From a virus: a DNA stretch of 28,951 nucleotides. Location of the stretch: positions 1 to 28,951 of IMG/VR virus record IMGVR_UViG_3300007539_000136. One strand, 5' to 3'. The notes below the pieces were generated by a model, which was not told the DNA's origin, ran no database searches, and saw only the letters and a program-made list of their open reading frames with translations. A program made the translations under genes and the position numbers. Shown piece by piece: positions 94 through 23,356 of this stretch. Position 1 is the stretch's first letter, and every line of letters begins with the position of its first letter.

Positions 94-120
94 AGGAGAA
101 ATTACAATGAGTTGGGAAGA
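94..120 (+). repeat. gene-start direct repeat, copy 1
   Basis: A 27-base block from AGGAGAAATTACAATGA through the first tag codons recurs at 383-409 with two differences. It includes the ribosome binding site, ATG and W-tag codons, which points to duplication of a complete gene start. Confidence 0.75.
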
Positions 121-382
121 AATAATAAAAAACGATTTTCCTTCGGAAAAATATGCACTATTGGTTAAAGTAATAGATGATAGGTTTGGTAATGGTGCTG
201 AAAGGGTTAAGAGGATTAAAGAAGTTTATGATGATAGACCAAGCGGAAAACCTATGACCGATGATGAGTTTGTTAGAGCCTATATTAAAAATGAAATTTA
301 TATGGCAGATAGACAAAAAGACTTTACTATTGATGGCGAGAAATATATTTTTGAACTAAAAAGAATACTTGGCGAAATATGA
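107..382 (+). CDS. small protein with N-terminal W-ILK tag
   Basis: A 91-residue protein of unknown function. I start it at the ATG at 107 rather than an in-frame ATG at 71, because 107 is preceded by AGGAG at good distance and places MSWEEIIK at the very N-terminus, matching the tag of many neighbours. The rest is charged and probably helical (RFGNGAERVKRIKEVYDD), with no catalytic motif visible. The 27 bases around its start (94-120) recur almost exactly at the start of the next gene, 25 of 27 identical, which suggests the 5' end was copied. It is likely a virion-associated or cargo protein by the tag hypothesis; that role is inference. Confidence 0.8.
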   Translation: MSWEEIIKNDFPSEKYALLVKVIDDRFGNGAERVKRIKEVYDDRPSGKPMTDDEFVRAYIKNEIYMADRQKDFTIDGEKYIFELKRILGEI

Positions 383-409
383 AGGAGAAATTACAATGAA
401 TTGGAAAGA
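383..409 (+). repeat. gene-start direct repeat, copy 2
   Basis: Partner of the block at 94-120, 25 of 27 bases identical. A shorter relative, AAGGAGAAATTGAAATGAGTTGG, stands at 727-749 before the third tagged gene, so three successive genes share this start. Confidence 0.75.
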
Positions 410-728
410 TGTTGTTGCTTCTAATGAAAGAGAAGATGCTAAACCTAATCCTCTTTTAGAGTCTGTCATACAAGCATTAGAACTTCTTTATGGTAATAGG
501 CGACAAGTGATAGAATCAAACATTCTTGGCGTTCAGCGTGAAAGCGATTTAGATGCCTTAGTAAATATTGATAAAGAATATATTACAAATTTAATTGGTG
601 ATATAAAATTTGCATATAGTGATAGAAACCCAACAGGTAGCAAAGACCATTTAGATGCTATTAAGGCACTTAATGTTATATGGAGGGTAGCACCCGAAGG
701 AGACGGGTCATGGAGATACGGGCTTTAA
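396..728 (+). CDS. small protein with N-terminal W-ILK-like tag
   Basis: A 110-residue protein of unknown function. The ATG at 396 is chosen over an upstream in-frame start at 369, because AGGAG stands 8 bases before it and the protein then starts MNWKDVVA, a divergent form of the shared tag with V-V in place of I-L and no lysine. The body is mixed alpha/beta-looking, with NIDKEYITNLIGDIKFAY in the middle and a C-terminus ending GDGSWRYGL. The 5' end is a near copy of that of the gene before it. No known domain is recognised. Confidence 0.8.
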   Translation: MNWKDVVASNEREDAKPNPLLESVIQALELLYGNRRQVIESNILGVQRESDLDALVNIDKEYITNLIGDIKFAYSDRNPTGSKDHLDAIKALNVIWRVAPEGDGSWRYGL

Positions 729-740: not shown

Positions 741-1532
741 ATGAGTTGGTTTTCTGTTTTTAAGTCTCAGCCACATCATGAGGGTAGAACATATAATGAC
801 CCTAATAAACTTGGTAGAGAATTAAACCCAAAAGAGGTAAAAGAGAACGGAGAAATTTTTCTTTTAGATGCAATAAAGTCTATGCCTCATGCGGAGAAAA
901 GAGGAAATACAGTTCTTCTTGACCCTAATTGGTTAGATGGTATGCAACCGACTAACGGTTTATATGGTTCAGATTTTTTTATAGGAGATAAAGTATTTGG
1001 TTTTTCTTTTGACTTTAGAGATATTCATAAAGAAAGATTGTGCATTAACTTTTATTATCAAAGAGCCATTCGGGGAATTGAATTTGAAGATGTGCATTTA
1101 GACAGAACAGAAAGAGTAGGTGATTTTCTTAAAAAGAAAATGTGTATTGCTCATAGAAAAGTTCCGGATAATGTAGAGGGAGATGAAGATTTTTCTCAAG
1201 TGGATTATAAACGAACTGCTACACCAGCAGACGACTATGCGGCTCTTATTTATTTGACAAGCGATAAAGAAATTTTCAATGGTTTATGGAATACTGGGCA
1301 ACCAAGAGGAAAAGAAGGCAATTGGTCTGCCCGTAAGATAGTAGATAAATTTCAATTCAAAAGATTGTCCGATGGAAGATTAGAAAAGTTAGGTTTTGAT
1401 GATTTAAGTAATGAAGATATATTGGAAATGAAAAGGCTTTTGCGGCAATTGCCTAATAACCCGATAAGACTTGATGATGATTATTTTATTAGGGAATATA
1501 TGAGTAAGAGTAATGTAGGAGTGATAGCATGA
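741..1532 (+). CDS. 263-aa tagged protein of unknown function
   Basis: Starts MSWFSVFKSQ with a GGAG ribosome binding site in AAGGAGAAATTGAA. The remaining roughly 250 residues look globular, with aromatic stretches (FIGDKVFGFSFDFRDIH, CINFYYQRAIRGIEF) followed by a charged helical end (LSNEDILEMKRLLRQL). No family is recognised. The stop overlaps the ATG of the next gene (ATGA at 1529-1532), so the two are probably translationally coupled. It is the largest tagged protein in the first 1.9 kb and may carry an enzymatic or structural domain behind the tag, but nothing in the sequence tells which. Confidence 0.85.
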   Translation: MSWFSVFKSQPHHEGRTYNDPNKLGRELNPKEVKENGEIFLLDAIKSMPHAEKRGNTVLLDPNWLDGMQPTNGLYGSDFFIGDKVFGFSFDFRDIHKERLCINFYYQRAIRGIEFEDVHLDRTERVGDFLKKKMCIAHRKVPDNVEGDEDFSQVDYKRTATPADDYAALIYLTSDKEIFNGLWNTGQPRGKEGNWSARKIVDKFQFKRLSDGRLEKLGFDDLSNEDILEMKRLLRQLPNNPIRLDDDYFIREYMSKSNVGVIA

Positions 1533-1690
1533 TTTGGAAAAGCATATTAAAATTTGATATGACTAATGAGACAAAGAAGGCTATACGCATTGTTGAAGAA
1601 TTAAAAGAAAGTAGCGAAGATGAAAGAATACAAAAATTAGAAGATATATTATACGACATATTAGAAAATTTAAGAGGTTATAGGTTTTGA
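1529..1690 (+). CDS. 53-aa tagged mini-protein
   Basis: A 53-residue open frame starting inside the stop codon of the preceding gene (ATGA). It begins MIWKSILKFD, a clear copy of the shared N-terminal tag, and continues as one acidic amphipathic helix (VEELKESSEDERIQKLEDIL). It ends with TGA at 1688-1690, and the next ATG follows four bases later. It is below the length cut of many gene finders, yet the tag, the overlap start and the seamless packing make it a convincing gene. Function unknown; it is little more than the tag plus a helix. Confidence 0.8.
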   Translation: MIWKSILKFDMTNETKKAIRIVEELKESSEDERIQKLEDILYDILENLRGYRF

Positions 1691-1694: not shown

Positions 1695-1949
1695 ATGAAA
1701 TGGAATGAAATACTTAAGATGAATCCTTATGATTGGGAAGATTTGGGCGATATTCTTACAGGAGAATATGATTATGAAAAATGGAAAGATAAGGCTATTC
1801 CTCCAGCACTAAAGGAACTACAAAATAAATTTAATGGTTCACCAAAAGGACTACAAAACGATATTAAGGCACTATTTAGAGACGCAAGTAGATTAAGTAT
1901 GAAACAAAAACAACAAGTTTTTGATATGATTAAGATATTATTGGATTAG
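1695..1949 (+). CDS. 84-aa tagged protein
   Basis: Starts MKWNEILKMN, one of the most canonical copies of the tag. The rest is an acidic N-half (DWEDLGDILTGEYDYEKW) and a basic, helical C-half ending MKQQVFDMIKILLD-like. No recognised domain. It lies between the 53-aa mini-protein and the 780-aa protein with gaps of 4 and 8 nt, so it is part of one polycistron. Likely a small virion or cargo protein by the tag hypothesis. Confidence 0.85.
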   Translation: MKWNEILKMNPYDWEDLGDILTGEYDYEKWKDKAIPPALKELQNKFNGSPKGLQNDIKALFRDASRLSMKQKQQVFDMIKILLD

Positions 1950-1957: not shown

Positions 1958-4300
1958 ATGTCTTGGTTTGAATTATTAAAATTAGTTCCGTTAGATAACT
2001 ATACTTTAGCATTTGTTATAACTAACGCCAAAGAAACGGAGAAAGCAATAAAAGAAATAGAAGCGTTAGAAAAAACACCTAAAGCACTTAAAGAATTATT
2101 AAGAAGTGTTGAAAATAAACAGTTAGATTTACAGAATTTAAAAGATTTATACGGTCAGCCGCCACATGGCGACCAAACTTTAGAACAAATGAAAGAAAAT
2201 GTGCAAAAAATAAAGGAAGCGGCACGATTTTTGACAATTGATGAGGTCAAAGAGTTAGTTGATGAAGCAACCGAAGCAAAAAGAAATGATAATCACCAAA
2301 GAGTTGAAGAAATTTTAGAAAATTTAGACCAAAATGCTGATTTGTCCGTTGCTACTCTTAAAAGATATAGAGATTTAAGAGATAAATTAGATTTATTGAG
2401 AACAAAAGGCAATAAATCTACTATAATTTTTGATAATCCTCCAAAAAATAAAAGTTTAATCACAGAATTTGCTAAATTAATTGGCGGAACTGTAAAAGGT
2501 GATGGAATTTTAGTTGATTTTAAGTCGGAAAGTGAAATTGTTGCTTTAATGTCAATAAAAATGAACAAAAACCGAGATAAAGTCTTAGATTCTAAAGCAG
2601 TTGTAGATAGAAAAAATAAAATTAAAGAAATTTACAATAAAATGCAAGGAGAAGAAAGAAATTTGGGTATGAAACTCAATATTGGCGATGACAATATTGA
2701 AATTGATGACTTAGTTAGACAAAAAAAGATATTTATTGCTTCGGATAGAAAATTAGAGTTAATTGAACCATTTACGGGTGCTTCTGTAATAAAATATGTT
2801 AAAGCAGTTGATAAAACTAAAGGTAGTGTAAGAGCATTTAGGCCAACAACACTTCCAAATGGAAATAGTCTCCCTTCTGTTCTATTTTTAGATAAATCAA
2901 GTTCAAATAGTATGAATCTAAATCCATATTCTTCTTTAGTTATACAAAATGATTTTTCCGAAAGCGAAAATTGGGAAAAAATGTTTTTTGATACTCTAAG
3001 AAGTAATGAAATGTTAAGTTTAGAACAGGCTAAAAGAATAATTATGGAAGAAATATACCAAGCAGTTGTAGCAGGTGAAGATAGAACCGTAAGTAATCTA
3101 TATATCGGGAGTCTTGTTGGGGAAAACGGTATTCAAAACCCACAAACTAAAACCAAAAAGGCAGTTAAGAAAGAAATTAATAACTTCATAAACTCAAGTA
3201 GGATTTTAGGAGAAGAAGTAGAAAATGCCAAATTAAACTTACAATCCGAGCAACTGCAATACTTGGGCGAGGATTTTACTATTCAAGAAGCAAATAACTT
3301 TGAAGAATTTTATAAAGTTCTAAGCGAAAGCGACCCCGAAGATTTCCCAATAGACGATTTAAAAATTAAATACTTTAGAAACGGTAGAGCATTAGACCCC
3401 GAAGAACCTCAACCTGTTTTAGAAGATGGTGTTCCAAAAAGAGACAATGAAGGCAATATTATTTTCTCAAGAGCAAATGTCAAGCAATATGCTAATCATG
3501 CTTCGGTATCTTTAGGTGGAGAAAAAATTAATCCAAGAGATGCTTATGAAATAGGAATGAAAGCAACAAGCCGTGATGCTTCGGAAGCCGCTAAAGAAAA
3601 AATTGATGATTTGATTAAGAATTTAGAAGAAAAAATACGCAAGGCTAAGGAAAAGTTGGATAAGTATTCTAAATTTAGTGCAGAAAATTTGCCTAAAGAT
3701 GAAAAAGGCGAACCAACTATGCAACCTCTTCAACTACAAGAACTACAAGAAGCAACCAAAAGAAATATTGCTCGCTATGAAATGAGACTGAAACAAACTA
3801 AAGATAGAAAGAAATCCGGCAAAACATTAACAGACTTTGGCGAACAAACCGCAAAATTAAGAGATGAACTTTTAACAACCGATAATTTTGCTGAATATGT
3901 TGTTTCTATGTCAAGAAAACTAAAAGATAAGGGAGGATTAGAAGAGTTTGTTAATACTATTGAAAGGTCAGCAACCGCTTTAGATAAGATTACTCCGGAA
4001 AGAAGTTTAAGTTTCCTTGCACAAATGGCTGAACATACTAATAATGATGAAATAAGAGAAGCCTTTATTAAAATTGATTCTAACGCAGAAACAGCAGAAG
4101 CCGAAGCAAATAAGTTAAATCAGCAAATGCCTAATATACTTAAAATAATGCAGGAACAATTAATCGGGGGTTTCAAGAATAAACTACAAGAATTTGTTGA
4201 TAAACCAGCGACTTTTCCCGATAATCAAGTAATAAATGCAAAGAAACAATTTATCAATCAAAATCTAATAAGATATGCAGACGCAACAGGAGAGGAATGA
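1958..4300 (+). CDS. 780-aa tagged, coiled-coil-rich protein
   Basis: Starts MSWFELLKLV after an AGGTG ribosome binding site. The first 140 residues are highly charged helices. A central part (about 150-300) has alternating short strands (STIIFDNPP, IGGTVKGDGILVDF). Residues about 565-650 form a strong predicted coiled coil (KIDDLIKNLEEKIRKAKEKL), and the C-terminal 150 residues are again helical. No enzyme motif is visible. The length, charge and position upstream of the terminase, in a gene array with the capsid-type tag, suggest a virion core or ejected protein, but tail-associated roles cannot be excluded. Its end overlaps no gene; the 827-aa gene follows after 4 nt. Confidence 0.88.
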   Translation: MSWFELLKLVPLDNYTLAFVITNAKETEKAIKEIEALEKTPKALKELLRSVENKQLDLQNLKDLYGQPPHGDQTLEQMKENVQKIKEAARFLTIDEVKELVDEATEAKRNDNHQRVEEILENLDQNADLSVATLKRYRDLRDKLDLLRTKGNKSTIIFDNPPKNKSLITEFAKLIGGTVKGDGILVDFKSESEIVALMSIKMNKNRDKVLDSKAVVDRKNKIKEIYNKMQGEERNLGMKLNIGDDNIEIDDLVRQKKIFIASDRKLELIEPFTGASVIKYVKAVDKTKGSVRAFRPTTLPNGNSLPSVLFLDKSSSNSMNLNPYSSLVIQNDFSESENWEKMFFDTLRSNEMLSLEQAKRIIMEEIYQAVVAGEDRTVSNLYIGSLVGENGIQNPQTKTKKAVKKEINNFINSSRILGEEVENAKLNLQSEQLQYLGEDFTIQEANNFEEFYKVLSESDPEDFPIDDLKIKYFRNGRALDPEEPQPVLEDGVPKRDNEGNIIFSRANVKQYANHASVSLGGEKINPRDAYEIGMKATSRDASEAAKEKIDDLIKNLEEKIRKAKEKLDKYSKFSAENLPKDEKGEPTMQPLQLQELQEATKRNIARYEMRLKQTKDRKKSGKTLTDFGEQTAKLRDELLTTDNFAEYVVSMSRKLKDKGGLEEFVNTIERSATALDKITPERSLSFLAQMAEHTNNDEIREAFIKIDSNAETAEAEANKLNQQMPNILKIMQEQLIGGFKNKLQEFVDKPATFPDNQVINAKKQFINQNLIRYADATGEE

Positions 4301-6793: not shown

Positions 6794-7147
6794 ATGACAT
6801 GGAAAAATATACTAAAAGAAGAAGAAGAAGAATTACCGGAAGATGTAAAGAGAGCAAGAGAAAGAGTTAGGCAAGGATTACCTTCAAAGGAGATGCCTCT
6901 TATTCCTCAATTTGAAGATGAAAAGAGAATGAAGAAATCAAAGAGTAATTTGCCCGATGAAGCAAAAGAGATAATAGAAAAAGTCGCTAAAGAAATGAGA
7001 GAAGCATTTGAAAAAATAGACCACGATGCGATATTAAGAATTTTAGACCCAACGGGTAGAAAACCCGTTATGAGTAAAAATGAATTAGTTGATATGTTAG
7101 TTGAGAATACTATTAAACGAATTAAGGCTGATAGATTATACAGGTGA
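6794..7147 (+). CDS. 117-aa tagged protein with acidic run
   Basis: The ATG at 6794 is chosen because AGGTGA lies just upstream and the protein then begins MTWKNILKEE; a GTG nine bases upstream is in frame but lies inside the ribosome binding site. The tag runs directly into a six-glutamate stretch coded by GAA repeats. The rest is charged helix (KRARERVRQGL, AKEIIEKVAKEMREAF), ending in a basic segment. No catalytic motif is seen. The next gene starts four bases after its stop, with the sequence GGTGATATT between. Likely a structural or DNA-associated small protein. Confidence 0.82.
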   Translation: MTWKNILKEEEEELPEDVKRARERVRQGLPSKEMPLIPQFEDEKRMKKSKSNLPDEAKEIIEKVAKEMREAFEKIDHDAILRILDPTGRKPVMSKNELVDMLVENTIKRIKADRLYR

Positions 7148-7151: not shown

Positions 7152-7430
7152 ATGACATGGGAAGATATAATAAAGATAGACCAAAGACAAAGAGATTTAG
7201 GACTTGTAGCACAATGGTTAGATGAAACAAAAAAGAAATATGCAGGGAAGCAGTATAATGTGGCTCGTTTGCCTCCGCAAACACCCGTATATGATGCTTT
7301 CAAAAGATTATACGATGGGGGAGATAAACAACAATTGTATAATTTGACTAAGCAAACTTTTGGATATGCAGGTGTTAGTGTTGGAGATTCTTTAGAAGGC
7401 CGACAAGGAGCATATTACATAGGGTTGTAA
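7152..7430 (+). CDS. 92-aa tagged protein
   Basis: Begins MTWEDIIKID at the ATG at 7152, preceded by AGGTGATATT, a textbook GGTGAT-type ribosome binding site; longer in-frame starts would run into the previous gene and lack such a site. The body contains QWLDETKKKYAGKQYNVARL and ends in a glycine-rich segment (YAGVSVGDSLEGRQGAYYIGL). No family recognised. Its first 12 codons closely resemble those of the gene at 7450 at both DNA and protein level, so the tag-coding 5' ends may have been copied. Confidence 0.83.
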   Translation: MTWEDIIKIDQRQRDLGLVAQWLDETKKKYAGKQYNVARLPPQTPVYDAFKRLYDGGDKQQLYNLTKQTFGYAGVSVGDSLEGRQGAYYIGL

Positions 7431-7449: not shown

Positions 7450-7710
7450 ATGACATGGGAGGATTTTTTGAAAGCCCGTTATTATGACGATGCTATGCAA
7501 ACTAATCCTCAATTGATAGCACAACAACTACGACAGGATTTTAGCAAAGCCCCTTCATTACATAAAGCAATTACTAATATTGTTCCTATTTTGGAAGAAT
7601 ATGCTTTGAAAGATAAAGCAAGAGCAGGTAGATATAGAGAGATTGCTAACAATCTAAGGAAGGTGGCTTCCGATATTAAACAAATGATAACCGAATATGA
7701 GAGGTCTTGA
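7450..7710 (+). CDS. 86-aa tagged helical protein
   Basis: Begins MTWEDFLKARYY, with GGAG in TTGGAGAAATTAAT before the ATG. It reads as an all-helical protein (LIAQQLRQDFSKAPSLHKAI, NNLRKVASDIKQMITEYE). No known domain. Its end overlaps the most upstream possible start of the next gene by 14 nt, and its last codons contain the GAGGT that could serve that gene's TTG start at 7712. Confidence 0.83.
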   Translation: MTWEDFLKARYYDDAMQTNPQLIAQQLRQDFSKAPSLHKAITNIVPILEEYALKDKARAGRYREIANNLRKVASDIKQMITEYERS

Positions 7711-9148
7711 TTTGTTTAAAGAAATGTCTAAAGAAGAACTCCAACAACTATGGAGCGAAACTATGGGCGATGAACCATTTCCTATGAATAGGTCGGAAAA
7801 TTCACCATTGGATTCTTTTTATCCTATTGATAATTTTATAGTTTTTATGAAAGAAGGAAAACCAATTTCCGGTGTTGGTTATTCTACAAGAGATGGTTTT
7901 AGTCTTAGAGGCGGGGCATTTACTATTCCCGAAGAAAGGGGCGAAGGAGTTTATAAAAAAGTATCACAGGAAGCAGATAGAATAATCCCAACTCCATATA
8001 TTGCAGGTTTTTCTTCATCTAATATTAGTTCAAAAGAATGGAATCAAACAGCAAAAGATAACGGTTGGTCTATCAAACCGACTGATGAAGAATTAGGAGA
8101 GTATGCAAACAATCCAACAATTAAAGCATTCAAAGACTATTATGATAATCACCCAAAAGGTGCGTCATGGGGAGTTAAAGGATTACCTTTGAAAAAGTGG
8201 TTTAGCATTCTTAAGTCATATAGAATAGAAATGGGTAAAGAGGGATATAATGTTCTTAATGCTTCGGGTAAAATTTTGAATTACAAAGGACTTAGCCGTT
8301 CACAGGCAAGAGCATTTGTTAAAGATTTAAAAGAAGGTAAAGATGTAAGCAGGTTCACTACAAAGCCCCGTAAAACAATTAGAGGCGGTTGGTTTAATCA
8401 ATTAAAAAAGTGGCTACCCGATGATAATTTTAAAATTGATACTGATGAAGATGGCGAAGAAATAATTTGGGAAGATACAAAGGACAACCCTTCACCATAT
8501 TATTATGACTCAAATAGAAACATATACATTAGACCCCATTACATAAATGTAGGAAAGGAAAGAACCCAAATGCAACCTTATGCTAATTCAACAGATATGA
8601 TAGATGAGTGGATTAGCAAAATATATGACAAGAACATTACAAGTAATGGTGCTTGGTTTTATGCTAATAACAAAAGTAGTGATTTAAGTTATGTTTTTGT
8701 TAGAAAAGCATCGGGAGATGCGAAACTATTAGGCTCAAAAAATCTTAAAAATAAAAAACCCACACCTGCTTTAATTTTTGACACTTTTAGAGGAAGAATA
8801 AAAACTAAAACTTCATCCTTTATTGGCAGACCGGAAAGCGGATTTTTAGATATTTGGGGAACAGGAATAAAAGCAGGACACAAAGAAGGCCAATTTATTG
8901 CTAATTCCGAACCACCACAAGAAACAGCGTATAGTAATGCTCAAACCAGCGATGAAGTTTATGAAGTGTTTAGTGTTATTAGGGCAAGAATAGAAGATAG
9001 AATAAAAACGGTAACTAATAGAAGAGATGGTGCAACTAATCCAGAAACAATAGAAAATGCAAATAAACAAATTGATAAACTAAAAACAAAATTGAATAAT
9101 GAATATAAAAAATATAAAAGAATACATAGAGAAATTGGTGATATTTAA
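7697..9148 (+). CDS. GNAT-like protein fused to a domain after an internal W-ILK motif
   Basis: A protein of 483 residues from the ATG at 7697, or 478 from a TTG at 7712 that has GAGGT six bases before it and would give MFKEMSKEEL; the second is slightly favoured by the ribosome binding site. Residues about 45-125 resemble a GNAT N-acetyltransferase core: strands around FIVFMKEGKPISGVGY, then TIPEERGEGVYKKV, similar to the acetyl-CoA binding loop. Residues 166-173 read KKWFSILK, an internal copy of the tag that opens every neighbour, and a second unrecognised domain follows to a coiled C-terminus. This suggests fusion of a GNAT-like gene to a tagged gene. The GNAT call is tentative. Confidence 0.7.
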   Translation: MRGLDLFKEMSKEELQQLWSETMGDEPFPMNRSENSPLDSFYPIDNFIVFMKEGKPISGVGYSTRDGFSLRGGAFTIPEERGEGVYKKVSQEADRIIPTPYIAGFSSSNISSKEWNQTAKDNGWSIKPTDEELGEYANNPTIKAFKDYYDNHPKGASWGVKGLPLKKWFSILKSYRIEMGKEGYNVLNASGKILNYKGLSRSQARAFVKDLKEGKDVSRFTTKPRKTIRGGWFNQLKKWLPDDNFKIDTDEDGEEIIWEDTKDNPSPYYYDSNRNIYIRPHYINVGKERTQMQPYANSTDMIDEWISKIYDKNITSNGAWFYANNKSSDLSYVFVRKASGDAKLLGSKNLKNKKPTPALIFDTFRGRIKTKTSSFIGRPESGFLDIWGTGIKAGHKEGQFIANSEPPQETAYSNAQTSDEVYEVFSVIRARIEDRIKTVTNRRDGATNPETIENANKQIDKLKTKLNNEYKKYKRIHREIGDI

Positions 9149-9462
9149 TGGAATTAGTTATGTGGCAAACTATTCTTAAGCAAGAGTATTCTTATGAATG
9201 GGTTGGTATTGTTGATGGCCGACCTATTATGTTAGTTGATGTTGAAGGAGAAAAAATATTATTTTATCTAAGAACAGGTAGTGGCGGTGCAGATGCGGAA
9301 GGAGTTGAAGAGGAAAACCAAATTAAAGCAGGTCAATTTGCACCCTTTTATGGATTTAGACATGATGGATGGTTTATTAAACCACAAGGAAGTAGAGCAG
9401 GAAATTATCTTAAAGTCGCTCGGTGGTTAGATAAAAACGCAACAAGGATTGGCCAAGAATAG
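9148..9462 (+). CDS. 104-aa protein with near-N-terminal tag
   Basis: The ATG at 9148 has GGTGAT five bases upstream, overlaps the previous stop and gives MELVMWQTILKQEY; an ATG at 9160 would put the tag MWQTILK at the very start but lacks a good ribosome binding site. The remainder looks like a small beta-rich domain (IVDGRPIMLVDVEGEKILFYL, FYGFRHDGWFIKPQGSR). No family is recognised. Three of the tagged proteins, including this one, carry GW or DW motifs further on, which I consider incidental. Confidence 0.8.
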   Translation: MELVMWQTILKQEYSYEWVGIVDGRPIMLVDVEGEKILFYLRTGSGGADAEGVEEENQIKAGQFAPFYGFRHDGWFIKPQGSRAGNYLKVARWLDKNATRIGQE

Positions 9463-11319: not shown

Positions 11320-11724
11320 ATGGGTTGGTTTAGTATTTTAAAAATAGGAAATACCTATCCTTCACCAAAATATACAACCTTTATGGTTCATGATAATGTT
11401 TGGGATAGTGCTAATATGGTTAATAATGTTGGTGGTATTAGAGAATTAGAAATGTCTTTAGGTAGAGAATTAACCGAGAAAGATTTTACTGATGCTCCTG
11501 TTAATTGGTCTGACTCTTTTTGGAATGAAAATAGGGCAAAAAACGCACCATTTGATATTACCCCCGATGAAATAAATGCAGATAGTGATTCCATAAAAAG
11601 AAAAAAAGAAATATTAGGGGAAGAAGGAAGAAAAAAATTAGCAAGAAGTTATTTGAATAGCGATAGACCAAACAAATATCCGGATAGAATAAAAGAAGCA
11701 GAAAGAATATTGGGGGTTGCGTGA
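11320..11724 (+). CDS. 134-aa tagged protein between terminase and homing-type endonuclease
   Basis: Begins MGWFSILKIGNTY after the TGAGGTTTTATT junction, where the terminase stop codon forms part of the ribosome binding site. The central part is aromatic (NWSDSFWNENRAKNAPFDI) and the C-terminus is basic and helical (IKRKKEILGEEGRKKLARSY). No known family. Only a single base separates its TGA from the next ATG. A structural or cargo role is suggested only by the tag. Confidence 0.83.
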   Translation: MGWFSILKIGNTYPSPKYTTFMVHDNVWDSANMVNNVGGIRELEMSLGRELTEKDFTDAPVNWSDSFWNENRAKNAPFDITPDEINADSDSIKRKKEILGEEGRKKLARSYLNSDRPNKYPDRIKEAERILGVA

Positions 11725-11725
11725 A

Positions 11726-13102
11726 ATGTCGGAAGCAGGGGATAAATTTAGAGAAATGGCGACTGTGGCTGATGAAGTAGAAGAAGGTAAAAAACGCCTT
11801 AAGCAGAAAGAAGAAGAAATAAAAAGACTTAGTGCGGGAAAAAATGAAGAAATACAAACAAGTCTCTTTACAAATACTCATGTTCTATCCGAGCATGAAG
11901 AAATAACAAAACTTGCAGACCATCTTAACATAAATGCAACAGAAGCAAGAAAACAATTAGATAATTTTCCTAATGAATATTTAGTTCAAGACCATACTAT
12001 TCCCGACATTGTTAGAAAGATGAGGAAGGCTCGCAGGGCTTTGAAAGGTGAACAAAGAATCAAAATGTCAAAGGCGATTGACACAATGATTGATGCTTAT
12101 GCCGACCACTTACAGAAGTGCATTGATTCAATAACATGGTTAAATGACTATACAGTTCCTTTATCTAAAATGAGATATAATGAAAAGGACTTGGTTAAAC
12201 TAAATAAAATGAAGAGTAGTGAATTAAGAAGAGAAACAATTGATGCTCTTTGTAAATATTGGGAAGCAGAATTAGAACAAAAAGATATGGCTTATGGTAA
12301 AGAATATAGCGATTTATTTAAAACAATGAAATCTGCAAAGAAAGAATTTAGAAATGCAATAAATAAAATAACTAATCAATCTATTTCTAAAAGTAAAAAA
12401 CAAAGACAAGAAGAGTTTATTTTAAAAACTGTATGTGAAAATCCGGGTATTTCTGCTAAAGGAATACATGAAAGAATGCCGTCTCAATTGTTTAAAATAT
12501 CAAGTCCAAATAATATATCTAAAGTAATTAAAAAATTAGATATTGCTTCAAGTGATGGTTCTTATTATAAAATGCCGTCTTTGATTAAAAAGAATATTTG
12601 GGCTTATACTGCGGCATTTATTGACTCCGATGGATATATTACATTAGACCGTAATATGAATCCAAGAGTAGGTTTGGTTGCGACAGGTGAAAGAGGAAAA
12701 GTATTCATGAAAGAAATGCACAAGTCAATAGGTTTTGGCCGTATGCACTTAGACCAAAAATCACCGCAAGATACAAGGCCGATTAACAGGCTCAATTTTT
12801 ATTCTCAAGCAGATGTTAGTGAATTGCTAACTAAGTGCTTGCCACATTTTAGATTAAAGAAAGGTAATGCTAAATTATTATTAGAATTAATCCGTATGAA
12901 AAAATCATATAAGAAAGAAGATTGGTATAAACAACGGTGCGATGAAATATTTAAGTTAATGAAGTGGGAGAATCATAAAGACCATGTTGGTTTTGATTGG
13001 CTAAAAGAAGGAATCTATCTTGATGATATACAGAAATACAAAGACAACTGCAAAATGTCTGTTATGGATAGCCTTGAAAATATCGGAGGAATAATAGCAT
13101 GA
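11726..13102 (+). CDS. coiled-coil/winged-helix protein with LAGLIDADG endonuclease-like C-terminus
   Basis: The ATG at 11726 gives 458 residues; an in-frame TTG at 11717 overlaps the previous gene. Residues 1-225 are charged helices with a coiled-coil start (VEEGKKRLKQKEEEIKRL). About 228-287 resemble a winged helix (FILKTVCENPGISAKGIHE, then ISKVIKKLDI). About 292-395 match the single-motif LAGLIDADG endonuclease family: WAYTAAFIDSDGYITL holds the motif with its acidic residue, followed by basic strands and LLLELIRMKKSY. One motif implies a homodimer. This may be a free-standing homing endonuclease near the terminase, or a packaging DNA-binding protein into which an endonuclease domain was inserted. 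It does not carry the tag. Confidence 0.85.
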   Translation: MSEAGDKFREMATVADEVEEGKKRLKQKEEEIKRLSAGKNEEIQTSLFTNTHVLSEHEEITKLADHLNINATEARKQLDNFPNEYLVQDHTIPDIVRKMRKARRALKGEQRIKMSKAIDTMIDAYADHLQKCIDSITWLNDYTVPLSKMRYNEKDLVKLNKMKSSELRRETIDALCKYWEAELEQKDMAYGKEYSDLFKTMKSAKKEFRNAINKITNQSISKSKKQRQEEFILKTVCENPGISAKGIHERMPSQLFKISSPNNISKVIKKLDIASSDGSYYKMPSLIKKNIWAYTAAFIDSDGYITLDRNMNPRVGLVATGERGKVFMKEMHKSIGFGRMHLDQKSPQDTRPINRLNFYSQADVSELLTKCLPHFRLKKGNAKLLLELIRMKKSYKKEDWYKQRCDEIFKLMKWENHKDHVGFDWLKEGIYLDDIQKYKDNCKMSVMDSLENIGGIIA

Positions 13103-13302
13103 AATGGGAAGAAGTATTGAAAAAGAAAAAGAAGAAAAAATCACCTTATGCGAATCCTAAACTAAGAGCAAGTGTTGTTCAAGCCGCTAAAAATAAAGTG
13201 TTTGGAGATGGAAAAGGCGGAAACGCTAAAGGTGCTTGGTCAGGAAGAAAGGCTCAATGGGCGGCAAGAGAATATAAGAAGCGTGGTGGAACTTACAGAT
13301 GA
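13099..13302 (+). CDS. 67-aa tagged, very basic protein
   Basis: Begins MKWEEVLKKKKKKK: the tag passes directly into seven further lysines, coded by a near-homopolymeric A/G stretch. The rest ends WSGRKAQWAAREYKKRGGTY, similar to C-termini of small basic proteins of tailed phages and giant DNA viruses (SARKxQxxAxEYKKxGGGY, recalled from memory). ATG overlaps the previous TGA (ATGA). The charge implies nucleic-acid binding, and together with the tag suggests a DNA-condensing protein packaged in the virion. That function is inference. Confidence 0.85.
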   Translation: MKWEEVLKKKKKKKSPYANPKLRASVVQAAKNKVFGDGKGGNAKGAWSGRKAQWAAREYKKRGGTYR

Positions 13303-13571
13303 AATGGCGTAGTGTTCTTAAAGCCAAAACAAAGGCGCAACGAGATTTAACTCAATGGACTGATGAAGATTGGGGAACTCAAACAGAACATAGAGCCAAA
13401 GAAAAAGGCAAAACGCCAAAGAAAGAAAAAACAAGAGGGCGTTATATGCCGAGAGCAACTTACAAAAGAACCTCAAAGGGAACTTTAAATTATCAAGATA
13501 GAAAGAAAAGAAAAAGCGTAAAGGCAGGTAAGACAACTGCACCAACAGGAAAAAAGTTTAGTCAAAAGTGA
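13299..13571 (+). CDS. 90-aa tagged, very basic protein
   Basis: Begins MKWRSVLKAKTK, overlapping the previous stop as ATGA. Its C-terminal two-thirds are extremely basic (KEKGKTPKKEKTRGRYMPRA, then DRKKRKSVKAGKT), typical of proteins that coat or condense DNA. The RGRYMPRATYKR segment resembles small basic proteins of large phages and algal viruses, from memory. It belongs to a run of four small tagged genes (13099-14063), three of them strongly basic. No enzymatic motif. Confidence 0.85.
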   Translation: MKWRSVLKAKTKAQRDLTQWTDEDWGTQTEHRAKEKGKTPKKEKTRGRYMPRATYKRTSKGTLNYQDRKKRKSVKAGKTTAPTGKKFSQK

Positions 13572-13576
13572 TTATT

Positions 13577-13777
13577 ATGTGGAAAGATATATTAAAGCAA
13601 GACATAAAAGAAAAAATACTTGCTGAAATTAAAAAAGAAGGCGGGGCATTAGGTATGAAAAATCTAAAACAATTTGGTGAAGAAGCAGAAATAAAAAGAG
13701 CCTTAGCCGAATTAGAAAAAGATGGTAAAATATTTATGCACAAAGATGGAGATATTTACACGCATAACCCGAAGTGA
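13577..13777 (+). CDS. 66-aa tagged winged-helix-like protein
   Basis: The ATG at 13577 is preceded by GTGATTATT and gives MWKDILKQDI, the short form of the tag without the residue between Met and Trp; an in-frame GTG at 13568 lies in the ribosome binding site. The body reads as a compact winged helix: helices EKILAEIKKEG and EIKRALAELEKDG, followed by a beta wing KIFMHKDGDIYTH. It would be a small DNA-binding protein. The next gene's ATG follows after GTGATATT. Confidence 0.8.
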   Translation: MWKDILKQDIKEKILAEIKKEGGALGMKNLKQFGEEAEIKRALAELEKDGKIFMHKDGDIYTHNPK

Positions 13778-13781
13778 TATT

Positions 13782-14063
13782 ATGGATTGGCAGGAAATTT
13801 TAAAGAAAAAGCCTTTCAAGGGTTATAATAAAAAGATTCATGCAAGAACCGGAGGACTAAGTGCTAAAGGTCGTGCTAAATTTAAGCGTGAACAGGGTTC
13901 TAATCTAAAACCTCCTGTGACAACTAAACCGAGCAAATTAAAAAGAGGAAGTAAAGCGGCAAAGAGGCGCAAGTCTTTCTGTGCGAGGTCAAGAGGATTT
14001 AAGCGAGCCGATGGAACTTATAGTGAAAAAGCAAGAGCCGCAAGAAGAAGATGGAATTGTTGA
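13782..14063 (+). CDS. 93-aa tagged basic protein, DUF6321-like
   Basis: Starts MDWQEILKKKPFKGYN at the ATG at 13782, with AGTGATATT before it. The following sequence has GGLSAKGRAKFKREQGSNL, SKAAKRRKSFCARSRG and a C-terminal ARRRWNC. From memory this pattern belongs to small basic proteins of cyanophages and giant viruses annotated as DUF6321. In those proteins the family domain lacks such a leader, so here the W-ILK tag appears to have been added to a known domain. Probably nucleic-acid binding. The family name should be confirmed by a profile search. Confidence 0.85.
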   Translation: MDWQEILKKKPFKGYNKKIHARTGGLSAKGRAKFKREQGSNLKPPVTTKPSKLKRGSKAAKRRKSFCARSRGFKRADGTYSEKARAARRRWNC

Positions 14064-14066
14064 TAT

Positions 14067-14183: not shown

Positions 14184-14185
14184 TT

Positions 14186-14488: not shown

Positions 14489-16126
14489 ATGGTTGAGCAA
14501 AAAAGAAGATTTAGCCTAACCAACCTGTTTAGGCGTTCTACTCCCAAACCTGCGGATAGAACCGTATTTAATATGGGAATCCAAGAAAGAGAAACCCATC
14601 ATATGATGAATGGGCCGATTATTTACAATATTGTTAATCAGTCAGTTATTGCGAGAACTTGCATTACTCAACTAAAACAAGAGGTTTTTCGTAGGGGCTA
14701 CATTTGGGAAAAGGCATTTGAAGCCCGATGTGGAGATTGTAAAAAAGAACACAAAAGACCCGTTAAAGAATGTTCTCGTTGTGGAAGCACTAATTTAACA
14801 GTTCCCGATATTAAACAGTTAGAGTATGCCGAAGATTTTTTGGAAGGATATGTCAATAAATCGGAACAACTTTTTATTGATGTATTACAGGAATTAGAAG
14901 ATGATTTGAATATAATGGATGATGCCTATATTGTTTTGGTAAAAGAATACTTTTTAGACGGTAATGGTAAAATTAGAATGCATCGTATCAAAGAATTATA
15001 TCGTGGCGACCCTGTGACTATGTTTATTTATTCCGATGAATTAGGACAAAGAGGAACAAAAGGATTTACTTGTGTTAATCATCGTGATGTTATTTACAAA
15101 GACCCACATGAACCTTGCGAGCATTGTGGAGCAAATACTTTTCCTGTTCATTATGTAAATAGAGTTAATGGACAAGACCAACATTTCCTAAAGGGAGAAG
15201 TTTTGCATTTTAGTAAATACAGTCCATCAAGACTTTATGGTATGTCTCCTGTCATTACTTTATTCAATAATATTATGACTCTTATTGCTATGGAAAATTA
15301 TGTTAATTCTTCATATACAAAGAGCCGAATGCCAAAAGGATTACTTGCAGTTCAAACAAGAAACATGGATTCGATGAAATCTTTTTGGAGAGCAGTAAAA
15401 GAGAAAATGGAAGCCGACCCGCATTTTATTCCTGTTATGGGTATTGAAGCCGAGAATGGTAAAGGTGCGGTTGAGTGGGTCAAGTTCATGGATAGTCTAA
15501 AAGAAATGGATTATGTTGCTGTTAAAGATGATTTAAGAGATAGAATATCAGCATTTTATGGAGTAAGTAAAGTTTTCATGGCTGATAATACTACAAGCGG
15601 TGGATTAAATAATGAAGGTATGCAAATACTTGTCACTAATAGAGCAGTTCAAAAAGCACAAACTGTTTATAATAATTATGTATTTCCATTCCTCACAAAA
15701 CAATTTGGAATTACTGATTGGAATTTGAAATTACCACCAAGCGAAGAAGAAGATGAAATCGCAGTAATAAGAAAAAGAGAATTAGAAGTAGGAATTGCAG
15801 GTTCAATTAAGAATTTAGGATTTGATGTTGAAATGGATGAAGATGGAAACTTTACCTTTACAAAACCTAAACCGGAAGAAAAACCAAAAGAAGGGGGAGA
15901 AGAACCATATGAAAAAGACCCTTATGCCGGAACTAATATAGATGCCTCCCAATTAGGACAAATGCAGGAGCAAGCATTACAGGGCGGAAGTAAGCCACAA
16001 GCAAATCCAGCAACAACAAGAAATAAACCATCTATGAATCAAGGGCCGGATAAAAGAATGTCAGGATTACCATTAGAAGCAGGAAATCAAAATAATGATA
16101 AAAGAACTGAAAGGAGGATTAATTAA
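14489..16126 (+). CDS. portal protein with zinc-knuckle insertions
   Basis: A 545-residue portal, the ring at the capsid vertex through which DNA is packed. Recognised from the order of parts: an N-terminal clip with FNMG and a helix, the stretch VLHFSKYSPSRLYGMSP near 240-254 typical of HK97-type portals, the wing helix, and ISAFYGVSKVFMADN followed by NRAVQKAQTVYNNYVFPFL. Two cysteine-rich insertions are unusual: CGDC...CSRC (81-98) and C195...CEHC (210-213), which probably bind zinc. The C-terminal 90 residues are low-complexity, Pro/Gln/Asn/Lys-rich. It lacks the W-ILK tag. The start has AAGGGG upstream. Confidence 0.92.
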   Translation: MVEQKRRFSLTNLFRRSTPKPADRTVFNMGIQERETHHMMNGPIIYNIVNQSVIARTCITQLKQEVFRRGYIWEKAFEARCGDCKKEHKRPVKECSRCGSTNLTVPDIKQLEYAEDFLEGYVNKSEQLFIDVLQELEDDLNIMDDAYIVLVKEYFLDGNGKIRMHRIKELYRGDPVTMFIYSDELGQRGTKGFTCVNHRDVIYKDPHEPCEHCGANTFPVHYVNRVNGQDQHFLKGEVLHFSKYSPSRLYGMSPVITLFNNIMTLIAMENYVNSSYTKSRMPKGLLAVQTRNMDSMKSFWRAVKEKMEADPHFIPVMGIEAENGKGAVEWVKFMDSLKEMDYVAVKDDLRDRISAFYGVSKVFMADNTTSGGLNNEGMQILVTNRAVQKAQTVYNNYVFPFLTKQFGITDWNLKLPPSEEEDEIAVIRKRELEVGIAGSIKNLGFDVEMDEDGNFTFTKPKPEEKPKEGGEEPYEKDPYAGTNIDASQLGQMQEQALQGGSKPQANPATTRNKPSMNQGPDKRMSGLPLEAGNQNNDKRTERRIN

Positions 16127-16518
16127 TGAATTGGTTAAGTATTTTGAAGAATAAAAGAAGTTTCAAGGATTTGAGACAATTAAGAGAAGAAGGCGTTAGA
16201 GAAGGAAAACAAAGAAGAAAGCCTCCAACACCTATGGCGGGTGGCGACCCCCGACAAAACAAACACAAACTTACTCAAGCATGGACAGGTGGAAGAGAAG
16301 GTGGGTATTTAGATGAAAAAGAACCACTTGATGAAACCCATGACGACAAATTCACAAGAGAACAATTAGCAAATTCAACTCGCTTTGATTTAATGGAGAA
16401 GGTTCAAGATATGTTAGATGATTTAACAGAAGATGAATTGATTGATATTCTAATAACTTCTCAAGGAGAAGTGGGGCTGATGGGAATTGAAATCGCAGAC
16501 AGGAGAGGAAAGAAATGA
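16126..16518 (+). CDS. 130-aa tagged protein downstream of the portal
   Basis: Begins MNWLSILKNKRSF with a full AGGAGG ribosome binding site; its ATG shares a base with the portal stop (TAATG). The first 60 residues are basic, with REGKQRRKPPTPM. The C-terminal 60 are an acidic helix (MEKVQDMLDDLTEDELIDIL). No family recognised. A basic-then-acidic layout would suit a scaffold-binding or DNA-binding adaptor, but that is a guess. It overlaps the next gene by 4 nt. Confidence 0.85.
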   Translation: MNWLSILKNKRSFKDLRQLREEGVREGKQRRKPPTPMAGGDPRQNKHKLTQAWTGGREGGYLDEKEPLDETHDDKFTREQLANSTRFDLMEKVQDMLDDLTEDELIDILITSQGEVGLMGIEIADRRGKK

Positions 16519-16748: not shown

Positions 16749-18365
16749 ATGTTTATTGAATTGCTTAAAGATAAGTCTTTAAAAAATGTTTTATTGAAGG
16801 CTGATTTAGATAACGAAACTAAAGAGTTAGTTGAAAGCGATTCAAATATTACCTTAATTAAGGAGTCTTTGATAAAAAACATTAATCCTAACAATATGGT
16901 TTCTTATAGAAAATATATTAAGAAAGCAGAAGAAGAGGAAGATGAACAATATGGAATTGCTGATGATGAAACAGGAGAAGAGGATTCATTGGGAACTTCA
17001 AGTGAAGATTATTTAAGTAGTGAAGAAAGAGATGCTAGATTAGAATCCGCAGAAATTGAATCCGACATTCAATTGATGGAAGATGAAAAAGATGCTTATA
17101 GATATTTAAGTGTATTATCATCTAAACTAAAACCTCTTCAAGATATAATGCAAAATGCAAGAATAGAAACACAAACTTTCAAGACAAGTAGGGCAGAAAG
17201 AGAGAAAGAGGTTGTTGTTGGAGGAATGAAAGATTTTCTTAAAGTAAGCGGTAGTGAAGATAATTCCGTTAAAACTCTACAAGATTTAAGAAACATTAAA
17301 ACAGATAATGATTATTTAATTAAAGAATATGGTCGTTTGCTAATTGACGGTGTTCTAAAAGGAAAAGATTTCAAAAGAGATAAGGACACTAAACAGTTTG
17401 AAGTCAAGTTAAATGAAAAGAAAGACATTGATGTAGAAGAACTACAAAATAAGTTTGTTTCACTATTGGCTCAAGATATTGAAGGCAAAAATGTTCTTGA
17501 CATTATGAAAATGTTGCATCAACAACAATACGGCAGAACACCAAAAACAATGCAGGATAGAGGTAAAAGAGCAAGAGAATTACGAGGCATAATGATGTTT
17601 GCTCAAGGTAAGAGCCAAAAAGTTGAAAGAGAATATAAAGCAATCAAAAATGATATAAAGCAACTTAGTAGTAAAACTGCTGAAATAAGGGTTAAAAAAG
17701 ATTTTGTTGAAGAAAAGATTCAAGAAATAGAAGAAATAATGCAAGAACCCGAAAAAATAGTTCAATTAAAAATTAAAAGACTAAGAGCAGGAATTATGAC
17801 GCTAATTAATTCCACAGGAACAAAACCCGATGAAGTCAAAAGACTAATGAATAGAATTAAAGAAATGGACACAGGAAAAGAAAGATTTATTCAAGAAGCC
17901 ACAGCAGAAATCCAAGAAGATTTAGAAGTTGAACAGGCCAAATTAAAACAATACCTAATTACTTTAAATGCGGCTGATAGACTCAAAGAACCTCTTAGTG
18001 GCTTTAGAAAAATAATTGGTATGTTCCAAGAAAATGACCCGATAGACGCTCTTAAAACAAAAATAACAAAAGCCGGAAATATTGTTATTAAACTTTATAA
18101 TCAAGCAAAAGGAATAGAAGCGTTTGCTTCTCGTCAAGAAGATGGGATTGAAGGAGGCATAAGTGCTTATTTAACAGATAATCCCGAAGTTAAATTGACT
18201 CTTGATGCAGACGGCTTAGATTTTGATGGCCTTCCAACAATTGATGCAGAAGCAGTTAGAAGAATGGGAGAATTTGAAGATAAGTTCAATGCTAAAGTTA
18301 GTGAGTTAGAGGAAATTGTTAATGAACTAAATAACATGATAGAAGGGAAAGGTGAAGATGAATGA
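16749..18365 (+). CDS. 538-aa coiled-coil protein
   Basis: Starts MFIELLKDKSLKNVLL with AGGTGATT before the ATG. The FIELLK beginning is at most a weak relative of the tag, as Trp is replaced by Phe. Residues 55-90 are very acidic (EEEEDEQYGIADDETGEEDS). About 290-410 form long coiled coils (KTAEIRVKKDFVEEKIQEIE), and helices continue to the end. No enzyme motif is seen. Length, composition and location between portal and protease are compatible with a core scaffold or internal virion protein. The end overlaps the next ATG by 4 nt. Confidence 0.85.
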   Translation: MFIELLKDKSLKNVLLKADLDNETKELVESDSNITLIKESLIKNINPNNMVSYRKYIKKAEEEEDEQYGIADDETGEEDSLGTSSEDYLSSEERDARLESAEIESDIQLMEDEKDAYRYLSVLSSKLKPLQDIMQNARIETQTFKTSRAEREKEVVVGGMKDFLKVSGSEDNSVKTLQDLRNIKTDNDYLIKEYGRLLIDGVLKGKDFKRDKDTKQFEVKLNEKKDIDVEELQNKFVSLLAQDIEGKNVLDIMKMLHQQQYGRTPKTMQDRGKRARELRGIMMFAQGKSQKVEREYKAIKNDIKQLSSKTAEIRVKKDFVEEKIQEIEEIMQEPEKIVQLKIKRLRAGIMTLINSTGTKPDEVKRLMNRIKEMDTGKERFIQEATAEIQEDLEVEQAKLKQYLITLNAADRLKEPLSGFRKIIGMFQENDPIDALKTKITKAGNIVIKLYNQAKGIEAFASRQEDGIEGGISAYLTDNPEVKLTLDADGLDFDGLPTIDAEAVRRMGEFEDKFNAKVSELEEIVNELNNMIEGKGEDE

Positions 18366-18730
18366 CATGGGATTTTTACGGTGAAGGAGAAGATTTTATT
18401 CTAAAAGCGGAAAAACAAAAACCAAAGGAAGTTCTTGATTCATTAGATGCTAAAGGTAGAAAAAAACTCAAAAAGACACTACAAGCGGCAGAACCCACAG
18501 AATTTTTTGGACAGGATTTTACTAAGTTGGGAGAACTAATTTCAACTCTTAGAGAATTAGATTTAACTAAGTCCGATAAAGTTCTAAATAAAAAAATGAA
18601 ATCAATGGATGAGCGCAACATTGATATTGTTGCTACCGCTACCAAACTTCGTAAAGAGTATGAACTTCTATATAGACAGTTGAGAGATATTGTTTATCCA
18701 ACAGGAGGAAAGAAGAATGACAGAAAATAA
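18362..18730 (+). CDS. 122-aa protein with interrupted tag
   Basis: Starts MTWDFYGEGEDFILKAEK: the MTW opening and a later EDFILKA suggest a tag interrupted by an insertion. AAAGGTGA lies just before the ATG, which overlaps the previous TGA. The rest is basic and helical (DAKGRKKLKKTLQAAEP, ERNIDIVATATKLRKEYELL). No known domain. It overlaps the start of the next gene by 14 nt. Confidence 0.78.
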   Translation: MTWDFYGEGEDFILKAEKQKPKEVLDSLDAKGRKKLKKTLQAAEPTEFFGQDFTKLGELISTLRELDLTKSDKVLNKKMKSMDERNIDIVATATKLRKEYELLYRQLRDIVYPTGGKKNDRK

Positions 18731-18971
18731 AACAATAAATGAAGAACTGCTAACAATAATTAAGGCTTTAACAACTAAAGTTGAAGAATTAGAAAGAACC
18801 GTATATTCAAAGGATAGTATTTTAAGAAAAGCCGGATTCGTTGTATCTAATAGCCCGACACCTGCTATTGATAATTCAATAGGCGGAATTAGTTCATTAC
18901 CAACAACAGATGTTAGCAATATGGATTGGTCGGAAATACACAAAATGGTAGAACAAGTGGAGGGAAAGTAA
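18717..18971 (+). CDS. 84-aa protein ending in the scaffold-like MDWSEIHKMV peptide
   Basis: The ATG at 18717, preceded by AGGAGGAAAGAAG, gives MTENKTINEELL; longer starts are less likely because they lie inside the preceding gene. The N-terminal 35 residues are a coiled-coil heptad helix (LLTIIKALTTKVEELERTV). After a disordered linker the C-terminus reads LPTTDVSNMDWSEIHKMV and six more residues. The protease-scaffold gene ends in nearly the same peptide (MDWSDIHKMV). This looks like a mini-scaffold: a coiled coil plus the scaffold C-terminal peptide. That function is inference from the shared end. Confidence 0.82.
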   Translation: MTENKTINEELLTIIKALTTKVEELERTVYSKDSILRKAGFVVSNSPTPAIDNSIGGISSLPTTDVSNMDWSEIHKMVEQVEGK

Positions 18972-22141: not shown

Positions 22142-23356
22142 ATGGTATCATCTGTAATGAATAGAAGCAGACACGATTTCAGGATTCTTAAAGCGCAAGA
22201 CGATTTAATGATTGGAGGATATGCAAGCATAGAAATCGTGGATAAGCAAAATGATTTAATCACACTCAAAGCACTTAACGAGGCAGTAAAAAAATATATG
22301 GAGAACCCCAAGTTTAGAAATGTAATGACAAACCATTCAAATGTTCAAGTGGGAGAAGTAGTAGAATCATATAGAGATAAAACAGGGAGATTGTGGAAAA
22401 CAGAAGTAGATGATGTTGGATTCTTTGTTGTAATTAAGTTGAGAGATGATATAGAAAAAGCCAAAGAAATTAATAGAGGCATAAGAAAAGGTTCATTGAG
22501 GTCATTTAGTATTGGAGGACAGGCTTTAGAAAAGGTAAAGAAAAACCATCAAGAATTAGGCGACTACAATGAAATTAGCAAACTTGAATTACATGAAGTT
22601 ACAATATGTGAAAAAGGAATTAACCCCGAAGCAAGATTTGATATTTTAAAACAAGAAAAAAACACAAAGGAAGTGAAAAATATGAGCAAGATAGAAAAAG
22701 CACTTGAAGAGTTAGATGCGCTAATGGCTGAAGTCAATACTCTACGCAAGGAAGAAGAAGAAGAAGATAAAATGGACATGGATAAGCCTAAAGACCCAAT
22801 GATGGATAAAGGCGATTACATGAAAGAACCAATGATGGACAAAGAAGATGAAGAAAAAGAGATGTATAAAGACGAAGCAGAAAAGGCCGTTCTAAATACT
22901 CTTGATGCTGGTGGAATTGAAATTGGCGAACCTGCTGATAGAATCGTTATTTCTGGTGGAAAGCCAAAGGCTTCCGATTTGCCCGTTGTTAAAGCATTTG
23001 ACAACAGCGAATTAGAAACTCTTGATTTGTCAGTTTCTAACATTGAGAAGGCTTACGAGGCTTTCCGTCAAGAACAACTTGAAAAGTTGGCTTACGACAA
23101 CCTTCAAAAGTCATTTGAAGCAAGGTTTAACCAAGAAGTTTCTGCAAAAGAATCTATTTTGGCAAAGTCTCAATATGATGCGGCAAGTGAAATTGCATCT
23201 CTAAAAGATGAATTTACCGCACTAAGAAAGTCTCTAACTGCTGAAAAGGAAACAATCCTAAAAGCACAAGAAGAGGCAATTGTTGAACTCCCAAGTATGG
23301 ATGAATTGGCTGAAATGGATTGGTCAGACATTCACAAAATGGTAGGAGGTTATTAA
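22142..23356 (+). CDS. prohead protease fused to scaffold protein
   Basis: A 404-residue protein from the ATG at 22142; other starts are a TTG at 22133 and an ATG at 22157. Residues 1-170 match the U35/XkdF-like prohead serine proteases: GYASIEIVDKQNDLI, TNHS with His65, GSLRSFSIGG with the likely nucleophile Ser118 or Ser121, and LHEVTICEKGINPEA. The protease trims scaffold and capsid proteins after assembly. From about 180 it is a scaffold: a helix, a Met/Asp/Lys-rich linker with PMMDK twice, long helices (EKAYEAFRQEQLEKLAYDNL), and the C-terminal peptide MDWSDIHKMVGGY. Its own scaffold may also be made from an internal start at 22682. Confidence 0.9.
   Translation: MVSSVMNRSRHDFRILKAQDDLMIGGYASIEIVDKQNDLITLKALNEAVKKYMENPKFRNVMTNHSNVQVGEVVESYRDKTGRLWKTEVDDVGFFVVIKLRDDIEKAKEINRGIRKGSLRSFSIGGQALEKVKKNHQELGDYNEISKLELHEVTICEKGINPEARFDILKQEKNTKEVKNMSKIEKALEELDALMAEVNTLRKEEEEEDKMDMDKPKDPMMDKGDYMKEPMMDKEDEEKEMYKDEAEKAVLNTLDAGGIEIGEPADRIVISGGKPKASDLPVVKAFDNSELETLDLSVSNIEKAYEAFRQEQLEKLAYDNLQKSFEARFNQEVSAKESILAKSQYDAASEIASLKDEFTALRKSLTAEKETILKAQEEAIVELPSMDELAEMDWSDIHKMVGGY
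22682..23356 (+). CDS. possible nested scaffold protein from an internal start
   Basis: Inside the protease-scaffold frame an ATG at 22682 (MSKIEKALEELDALMAEVNT) is preceded by AAAGGAAGTGAAAAAT, a usable ribosome binding site at correct spacing. It falls exactly at the boundary between the protease and scaffold parts, and would give a 224-residue scaffold in the same frame. Phage lambda uses such an in-frame start (C and Nu3) to make many copies of scaffold per protease. This is predicted from layout only. Confidence 0.4.
   Translation: MSKIEKALEELDALMAEVNTLRKEEEEEDKMDMDKPKDPMMDKGDYMKEPMMDKEDEEKEMYKDEAEKAVLNTLDAGGIEIGEPADRIVISGGKPKASDLPVVKAFDNSELETLDLSVSNIEKAYEAFRQEQLEKLAYDNLQKSFEARFNQEVSAKESILAKSQYDAASEIASLKDEFTALRKSLTAEKETILKAQEEAIVELPSMDELAEMDWSDIHKMVGGY

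Follow-up and report, generated by a model that had tools for sequence, protein, structure and literature searches.

The window, by which we mean the whole stretch of 28,951 bases that was analysed, is a complete IMG/VR record. Its genes (Table 1) include a terminase, a portal, an ATP-dependent DNA ligase and, side by side, a prohead protease fused to a scaffold and the major capsid protein (MCP), together with a series of proteins that start with the same short peptide, referred to below as the tag.

Table 1. Positions of the genes and peptides of the window that are discussed in the text.
Feature	Positions	Strand	Remarks
Tagged protein MSWEEIIK...	107..382	+	
Tagged protein MNWKDVVA...	396..728	+	
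Tagged protein MSWFSVFK...	741..1532	+	
Tagged protein MIWKSILK...	1529..1690	+	53 aa
Tagged protein MKWNEILK...	1695..1949	+	
Tagged protein MSWFELLK...	1958..4300	+	780 aa
Tagged protein MTWKNILK...	6794..7147	+	
Tagged protein MTWEDIIK...	7152..7430	+	
Tagged protein MTWEDFLK...	7450..7710	+	
483-aa protein	7697..9148	+	internal tag-like KKWFSILK and GGWFNQLK, the two best internal matches of the window
Tagged protein MWQTILK...	9160..9462	+	variant without residue 2
Terminase	9880-11310		
Tagged protein MGWFSILK...	11320..11724	+	
Tagged small protein MKWEEVLKKKKKKK...	13099..13302	+	very basic
Tagged basic protein MKWRSVLK...	13299..13571	+	
Tagged protein MWKDILK...	13577..13777	+	listed ORF starts at 13568, MIIMWKDILK
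Tagged protein MDWQEILK...	13782..14063	+	DUF6321 domain (PF19846, E 3.3e-15)
Portal	14489-16126		
Tagged protein MNWLSILK...	16126..16518	+	family found at 41 loci, one of the widest spread among those with a tag
Protein with variant tag MTWDFYGEGEDFILK...	18362..18730	+	cluster t320; canonical tag in divergent-clade relatives
Small 84-aa protein	18717..18971	+	coiled-coil-like by sequence; same C-terminal peptide as the scaffold
C-terminal peptide of the small protein, MDWSEIHKMVEQVEGK	18921..18968	+	
ATP-dependent DNA ligase	19588-22098		
Prohead protease (Peptidase_S78) fused to scaffold	22142..23356	+	ATG at 22142, stop at 23356; PF04586 E 3.7e-10; PHROG head maturation protease; adjoins MCP
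C-terminal peptide of the scaffold, MDWSDIHKMVGGY	23315..23353	+	last 13 residues, pattern from 23315; conserved; scores as a tag; own short helix in the model
MCP	23358-24710	+	Pfam SU10_MCP E 5.5e-6; PHROG major head protein 1.4e-19

The closest annotated relatives are haloarchaeal tailed viruses, e.g. HCTV-1 and HVTV-1, with identities of 25.5% for the MCP, which is homologous to that of HCTV-1, about 28% for the portal and about 30% for the protease. Magroviruses, linked to marine Poseidoniales, measure 90-110 kb, carry a DNA ligase and are close to the Druskaviridae (PMC12999244). A further mark of the group is that morphogenesis and replication genes occupy opposite strands. Because the MCP, portal and protease are nearest to those of the HCTV-1/HVTV type, the records of many environmental relatives measure about 88-98 kb and a DNA ligase is present, the virus of the window fits the published description of magroviruses and may be taken as a relative of them, its host and family being putatively assigned by that likeness.

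Several further observations were made on these genomes. A record of 184,733 bases (IMGVR_UViG_3300021958_000021; loci L007 and L175) carries two different magrovirus-type MCPs and may therefore be two joined genomes, and two contigs that bear the label of a metagenome-assembled genome of Maricaulis (L237 and L238; NZMJ01000024.1 and NZMJ01000101.1) contain this virus family, probably through a binning error. In the window, a 461-aa protein adjoining the terminase (11717-13102) has a weak HNH endonuclease match (phrog_5046) in its C-terminal part, and a small GTPase-like protein (26372-27040; weak Pfam matches) lies 3' of the MCP and is kept in the relatives read.

The assignment of the protease to Peptidase_S78 is clear (PF04586, 40.6 bits for a curated cut-off of 21). 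Its scaffold end has the M-x-W-x-x-I-x-K pattern, and this motif is kept in 206 of the 209 near relatives recovered, so that the conservation expected by the initial annotation is borne out; a divergent clade keeps a looser core. Trp394 is invariant across 139 distinct scaffolds and, when the 60 C-terminal residues of a set of 53 diverse scaffolds are compared, belongs to the seven that never vary. The peptide has a mean entropy of 0.62, as compared with about 2.1 for the acidic linker upstream of the long helix, and is thus far better conserved.

The same annotation had placed the element on the scaffold alone, which has to be revised, since the small 84-aa protein finishes with the same kind of peptide (...NMDWSEIHKMVEQVEGK, including MDWSEIHKM). 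Its motif is found in 164 of 167 near relatives, and the exceptions for both proteins have related ends, e.g. MSWADLNRLAGN and MSFDDMAKIIQKME. In the divergent clade, reached by a second MCP search, nearly all copies of the scaffold and of the small protein retain the core M-x-W-x-[DE]-[IVL], with ends such as MSWGDIHNLA and MDWDDIHKIV. The 84-aa protein is a probable second scaffold or core protein. A second N-terminal pattern (MTWDYY or MTWDFY...I(L)K) adjoins the small protein; it is found at 18362-18730 of the window and in three tandem copies at positions 5115-5800 of another locus (L234).

Outside this group the scaffolds of HCTV-1 and HVTV-1 are without the motif. The Methanofastidiosa virus vir519 (L168, BK063666) has, 5' of its MCP, a scaffold-like protein (11851-14250) that ends in KMTTEEIERQFGGE, a sequence which aligns by eye with the motif with Thr in place of Trp; a search for vir519-like loci gave none.

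The N-terminal tags follow the logo M-[STN]-W-[KEFQ]-[DNSE]-[IV]-[LIV]-K and stand on about 15 proteins per genome (range about 10-20), nearly all of them on the morphogenesis strand. In five genomes, 71 of the 290 genes of the morphogenesis (+) strand have a Trp at residue 3, as against 9 of 238 on the opposite one (for the + strand, P about 1e-75 at a background of 0.0097). A search of 26 records with the tag DNA pattern gave 287 matches on the morphogenesis strand, a count that includes scaffold ends, against 12 on the opposite strand and 13 for the reversed control on both strands. The codons vary synonymously within the motif, both in tags and in scaffold ends, and selection therefore acts on the peptide; a nucleotide-level signal as the cause of the motif is ruled out by the same variation. 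Some tags lack residue 2 (MWFDILK), which indicates that the Trp core counts for more than its spacing from the start.

Once the tag is stripped, the bodies of 371 distinct tagged proteins can be sorted into about 155 clusters, for the most part unrelated to one another; 33 of these have at least three members, and some of the singletons are probably out-of-frame noise. The enzyme functions guessed for some of them (metalloprotease-like, GNAT-like, nucleotidyltransferase-like) gave no Pfam match above the cut-off and are not claimed. Unlike the basic cargo of T4, only 14% of the bodies are strongly basic and their mean net charge is about zero, and the neutralisation of DNA is therefore not a general role of this set. 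The very basic tagged proteins at 13099-13571, close to the DUF6321 protein at 13782-14063, are candidate DNA-binding internal proteins. Tandem expansion of a tagged family was seen in one relative (G006, oriented positions 93236-95526; L152), where five neighbouring related proteins begin with MWWDILK.., MMWWDIIK.. or MMWFDILK...

The peptide is not confined to N-termini. In a homologous-looking pair of proteins from different relatives (L165, G012:76789, and L161, G010:4455) it lies at the extreme C-terminus, the ends being KQWREILKGL and LKWDEVLRV, from which it follows that it is used at either end, and some proteins have it internally. In the window, the two internal tag-like sequences of the 483-aa protein possibly mark fused cargo domains. 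No prior description of such a peptide was found in the openly accessible literature searched.

To assess how far the scaffold end resembles the tags, we derived a profile from N-terminal tags alone (64 of them, taken from the window and from four long relatives), with Met1 left unscored; all internal 8-mers were scored, so that the pattern was not picked by eye. Among the 8,668 internal 8-mers of the window the scaffold end ranks third and the end of the small protein (18921) fourth, behind the two stretches of the 483-aa protein. When the last 24 residues are compared over all 40 genes of the window, the scaffold scores 10.0 and the small protein 8.2, while the best tail without the motif reaches 0.6. 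Shuffled tails matched the real score in 19 of 20,000 cases for the scaffold and in 173 of 20,000 for the small protein. The ranking is weaker in the long relative G010, whose scaffold ends in MDWSDIHR. The match to the tag pattern that had been noted by eye is thus upheld.

The further proposal that the tags mimic the scaffold end stands as regards the kind of peptide, which is used at N- and C-termini. The two are not identical in detail: scaffolds systematically have His (or Asn) at position 7, where the tags have Leu, Ile or Val. In view of this difference an exact copy is less likely than mimicry in which one side chain has been tuned, and the exchange of His for Leu leaves room for overlapping rather than identical contacts by the two peptides. 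A joint change of tags and scaffold end was looked for among clades and no decisive case was found. Ser2 differs between clades in tags (71% and 32%) and shifts in untagged genes too (30% and 16%); covariation of position 2 between tag and scaffold was accordingly rejected as evidence, being partly matched in untagged genes and not independent of lineage.

The scaffold was modelled with AlphaFold (AF2; 53-row alignment, mean pLDDT 63.6). In the model the protease (about residues 23-156) is followed by an acidic disordered linker (about 206-287) and by an 82-residue helix (298-379); after a break come a short helix (386-391) and a last one (394-401) that begins at Trp394. The scaffold end is thus predicted as a separate short helix, and the layout is that expected where the last helices touch the coat. 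No sequence relatives of the scaffold or of the MCP were found in the PDB. A Foldseek search of the scaffold model against the PDB gave weak matches only, headed by two assemblin proteases of herpesviruses (E 0.016-0.021), and against BFVD there were 130 structural matches at E<=0.001, mostly prohead proteases among the matches listed. We also modelled an artificial construct in which the scaffold tail was tethered to the MCP by reading the stop as Gly in relatives with in-frame genes (41 rows), no read-through being claimed; this model (mean pLDDT 38.8, pTM 0.16) carries no docking information.

Thus, we propose that the peptide is a capsid-targeting helix common to scaffold and cargo, which docks during head assembly and by which cargo is packed through imitation of the scaffold, a reading to which we give somewhat better than an even chance. 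The peptide would be a short amphipathic docking helix with the core W-x-[DE/N]-[IV]. In this mechanism the protease-scaffold and its small partner would present their C-terminal helix within the procapsid as it grows and dock there, with the MCP (the coat protein) as the presumed partner and its inner face as the likeliest site. About 10-20 other viral proteins per genome with the same helix, N-terminal in most cases and sometimes C-terminal or internal, would occupy similar sites and so be co-packaged, and the packed cargo would then remain with the DNA or pass to the host. The binding partner, the packaging and the delivery are the parts of this model that we infer; no virion analysis of these viruses was found in the literature. 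A wider form of the proposal, in which an eight-residue helix resembling the putative coat-binding end of the scaffold is a general cargo code that admits to the capsid a large protein set of rapidly changing composition, delivered along with the genome, is more tentative, and we place it slightly short of even.

The main rival places the contact on the scaffold itself, the tags binding its C-terminal helix or coiled coil rather than the coat, so that cargo joins the scaffold core. The same helix on many partners could indeed pack helix to helix, the capsid targeting sequence (CTS) of phage T4 sends proteins into the scaffolding core (PMC3012670, PMC9026906) and the ejection proteins of P22 are believed to attach to the scaffold column (PMC12005531). 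However, the motif lies beyond the long helix and separate from it, as for a coat-binding end, and two scaffold-like proteins that are alike only in their C-terminus are better explained by a common external partner; we regard scaffold-core binding as unlikely, though it is the rival that survives best.

Less probable still is a role in processing, in which the prohead protease would recognise the peptide and both tags and scaffold end would be maturation substrates. The fusion of the S78 protease to the scaffold and the cleavage of the T4 targeting sequence (PMC9026906) speak in its favour, but no conserved cleavage-like residue is found at positions 9-12 after the tag, the scaffold motif lies at most 13 residues from the end, so that cleavage would free almost nothing, and the conserved residues follow the pattern of an amphipathic helix. 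We give the same small chance to a reading in which the coat plays no part and the peptides all dock elsewhere, for example on the portal, on the small coiled-coil protein or on a host protein: even though the P22 and herpesvirus scaffolds contact the portal too (PMC12005531), 10-20 kinds of cargo and two scaffold-type proteins suggest an abundant partner, whereas a 12-mer portal has few sites, and a general host partner would not be expected from tags so nearly confined to morphogenesis genes. A coincidental or non-functional likeness, to which the difference at position 7 and a scaffold-end profile score below that of true tags might point, is very improbable, given that hundreds of genomes keep the motif at two independent C-termini, the sole such ends among the window genes, and that canonical tags are found at C-termini as well.

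The capsid-targeting reading may be compared with known packaging systems, and in the first place with T4, whose internal proteins have differing bodies behind a common N-terminal targeting sequence, Tyr4 and Phe7 being its most important residues (PMC9026906). As with the CTS of IPI-III and Alt, a short N-terminal peptide is borne by unrelated proteins, aromatic and hydrophobic residues are spaced i, i+3 (Tyr4/Phe7 in T4, Trp3/Ile6 here) and most of the information lies in the first 8-10 residues (PMC9026906). The tags share this residue spacing and are otherwise dissimilar to MKTYQEFIAEA, and where the CTS has an [LI]-x-E prohead protease site they have no conserved residue at positions 9-12. 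Furthermore, the end of the T4 scaffold gp22 is not CTS-like whereas the scaffold end here matches the tags, and the kinds of cargo are many more, with occasional C-terminal or internal tags and with packaging as a proposal. The best reading is that the tag would work like the T4 targeting sequence, and also like the scaffold C-termini of herpesviruses, without belonging to the T4 type by sequence.

In herpesviruses the protease-scaffold UL26 and the scaffold UL26.5 have a common MCP-binding C-terminus (PMC12474303). The window likewise has a conserved C-terminal tail common to the protease-scaffold and a second protein, which here is a separate gene alike only in the peptide, and the binding of the coat is presumptive. 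We know of no herpesvirus counterpart of the cargo tags.

The scaffold of P22 binds coat via a C-terminal helix-turn-helix (PMC9962691; PMC12005531), and cargo fused to its end is packaged in engineered particles (PMC9962691). The likeness is one of layout, without a claim of sequence similarity: a pair of short C-terminal helices follows a long helical scaffold, in our case in the model. While the P22 fusions are engineered, this virus itself seems to use them, with an eight-residue element mostly at the N-terminus of the cargo. Encapsulin cargo-loading peptides are short and stand at either end of varied cargo of an HK97-fold shell (PMC7355545), a placement that is also found here; they are unrelated in sequence and have no scaffold to imitate, and binding to the shell, which for encapsulin peptides takes place in a pocket on its lumenal face, is in our case a proposal. 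The N-terminal signal of phage P1 DarB suffices to send a reporter into the capsid (PMC9024508), but it measures 30 residues, belongs to one protein and has no motif in common with the scaffold.

If the proposal is true, the choice of which internal proteins are packaged would become a testable one-motif question in abundant viruses for which metagenomes are the sole source. For about 155 clusters of proteins, most of them without annotation, it would predict a location inside the head and perhaps suggest a role, in early host takeover or in DNA organisation. T4-type targeting peptides and scaffold tails that bind the coat would come together as a single mechanism, and scaffold mimicry would represent a natural cargo-loading principle that can be read from sequence alone and by which the internal proteins of uncultured viruses could be recognised.
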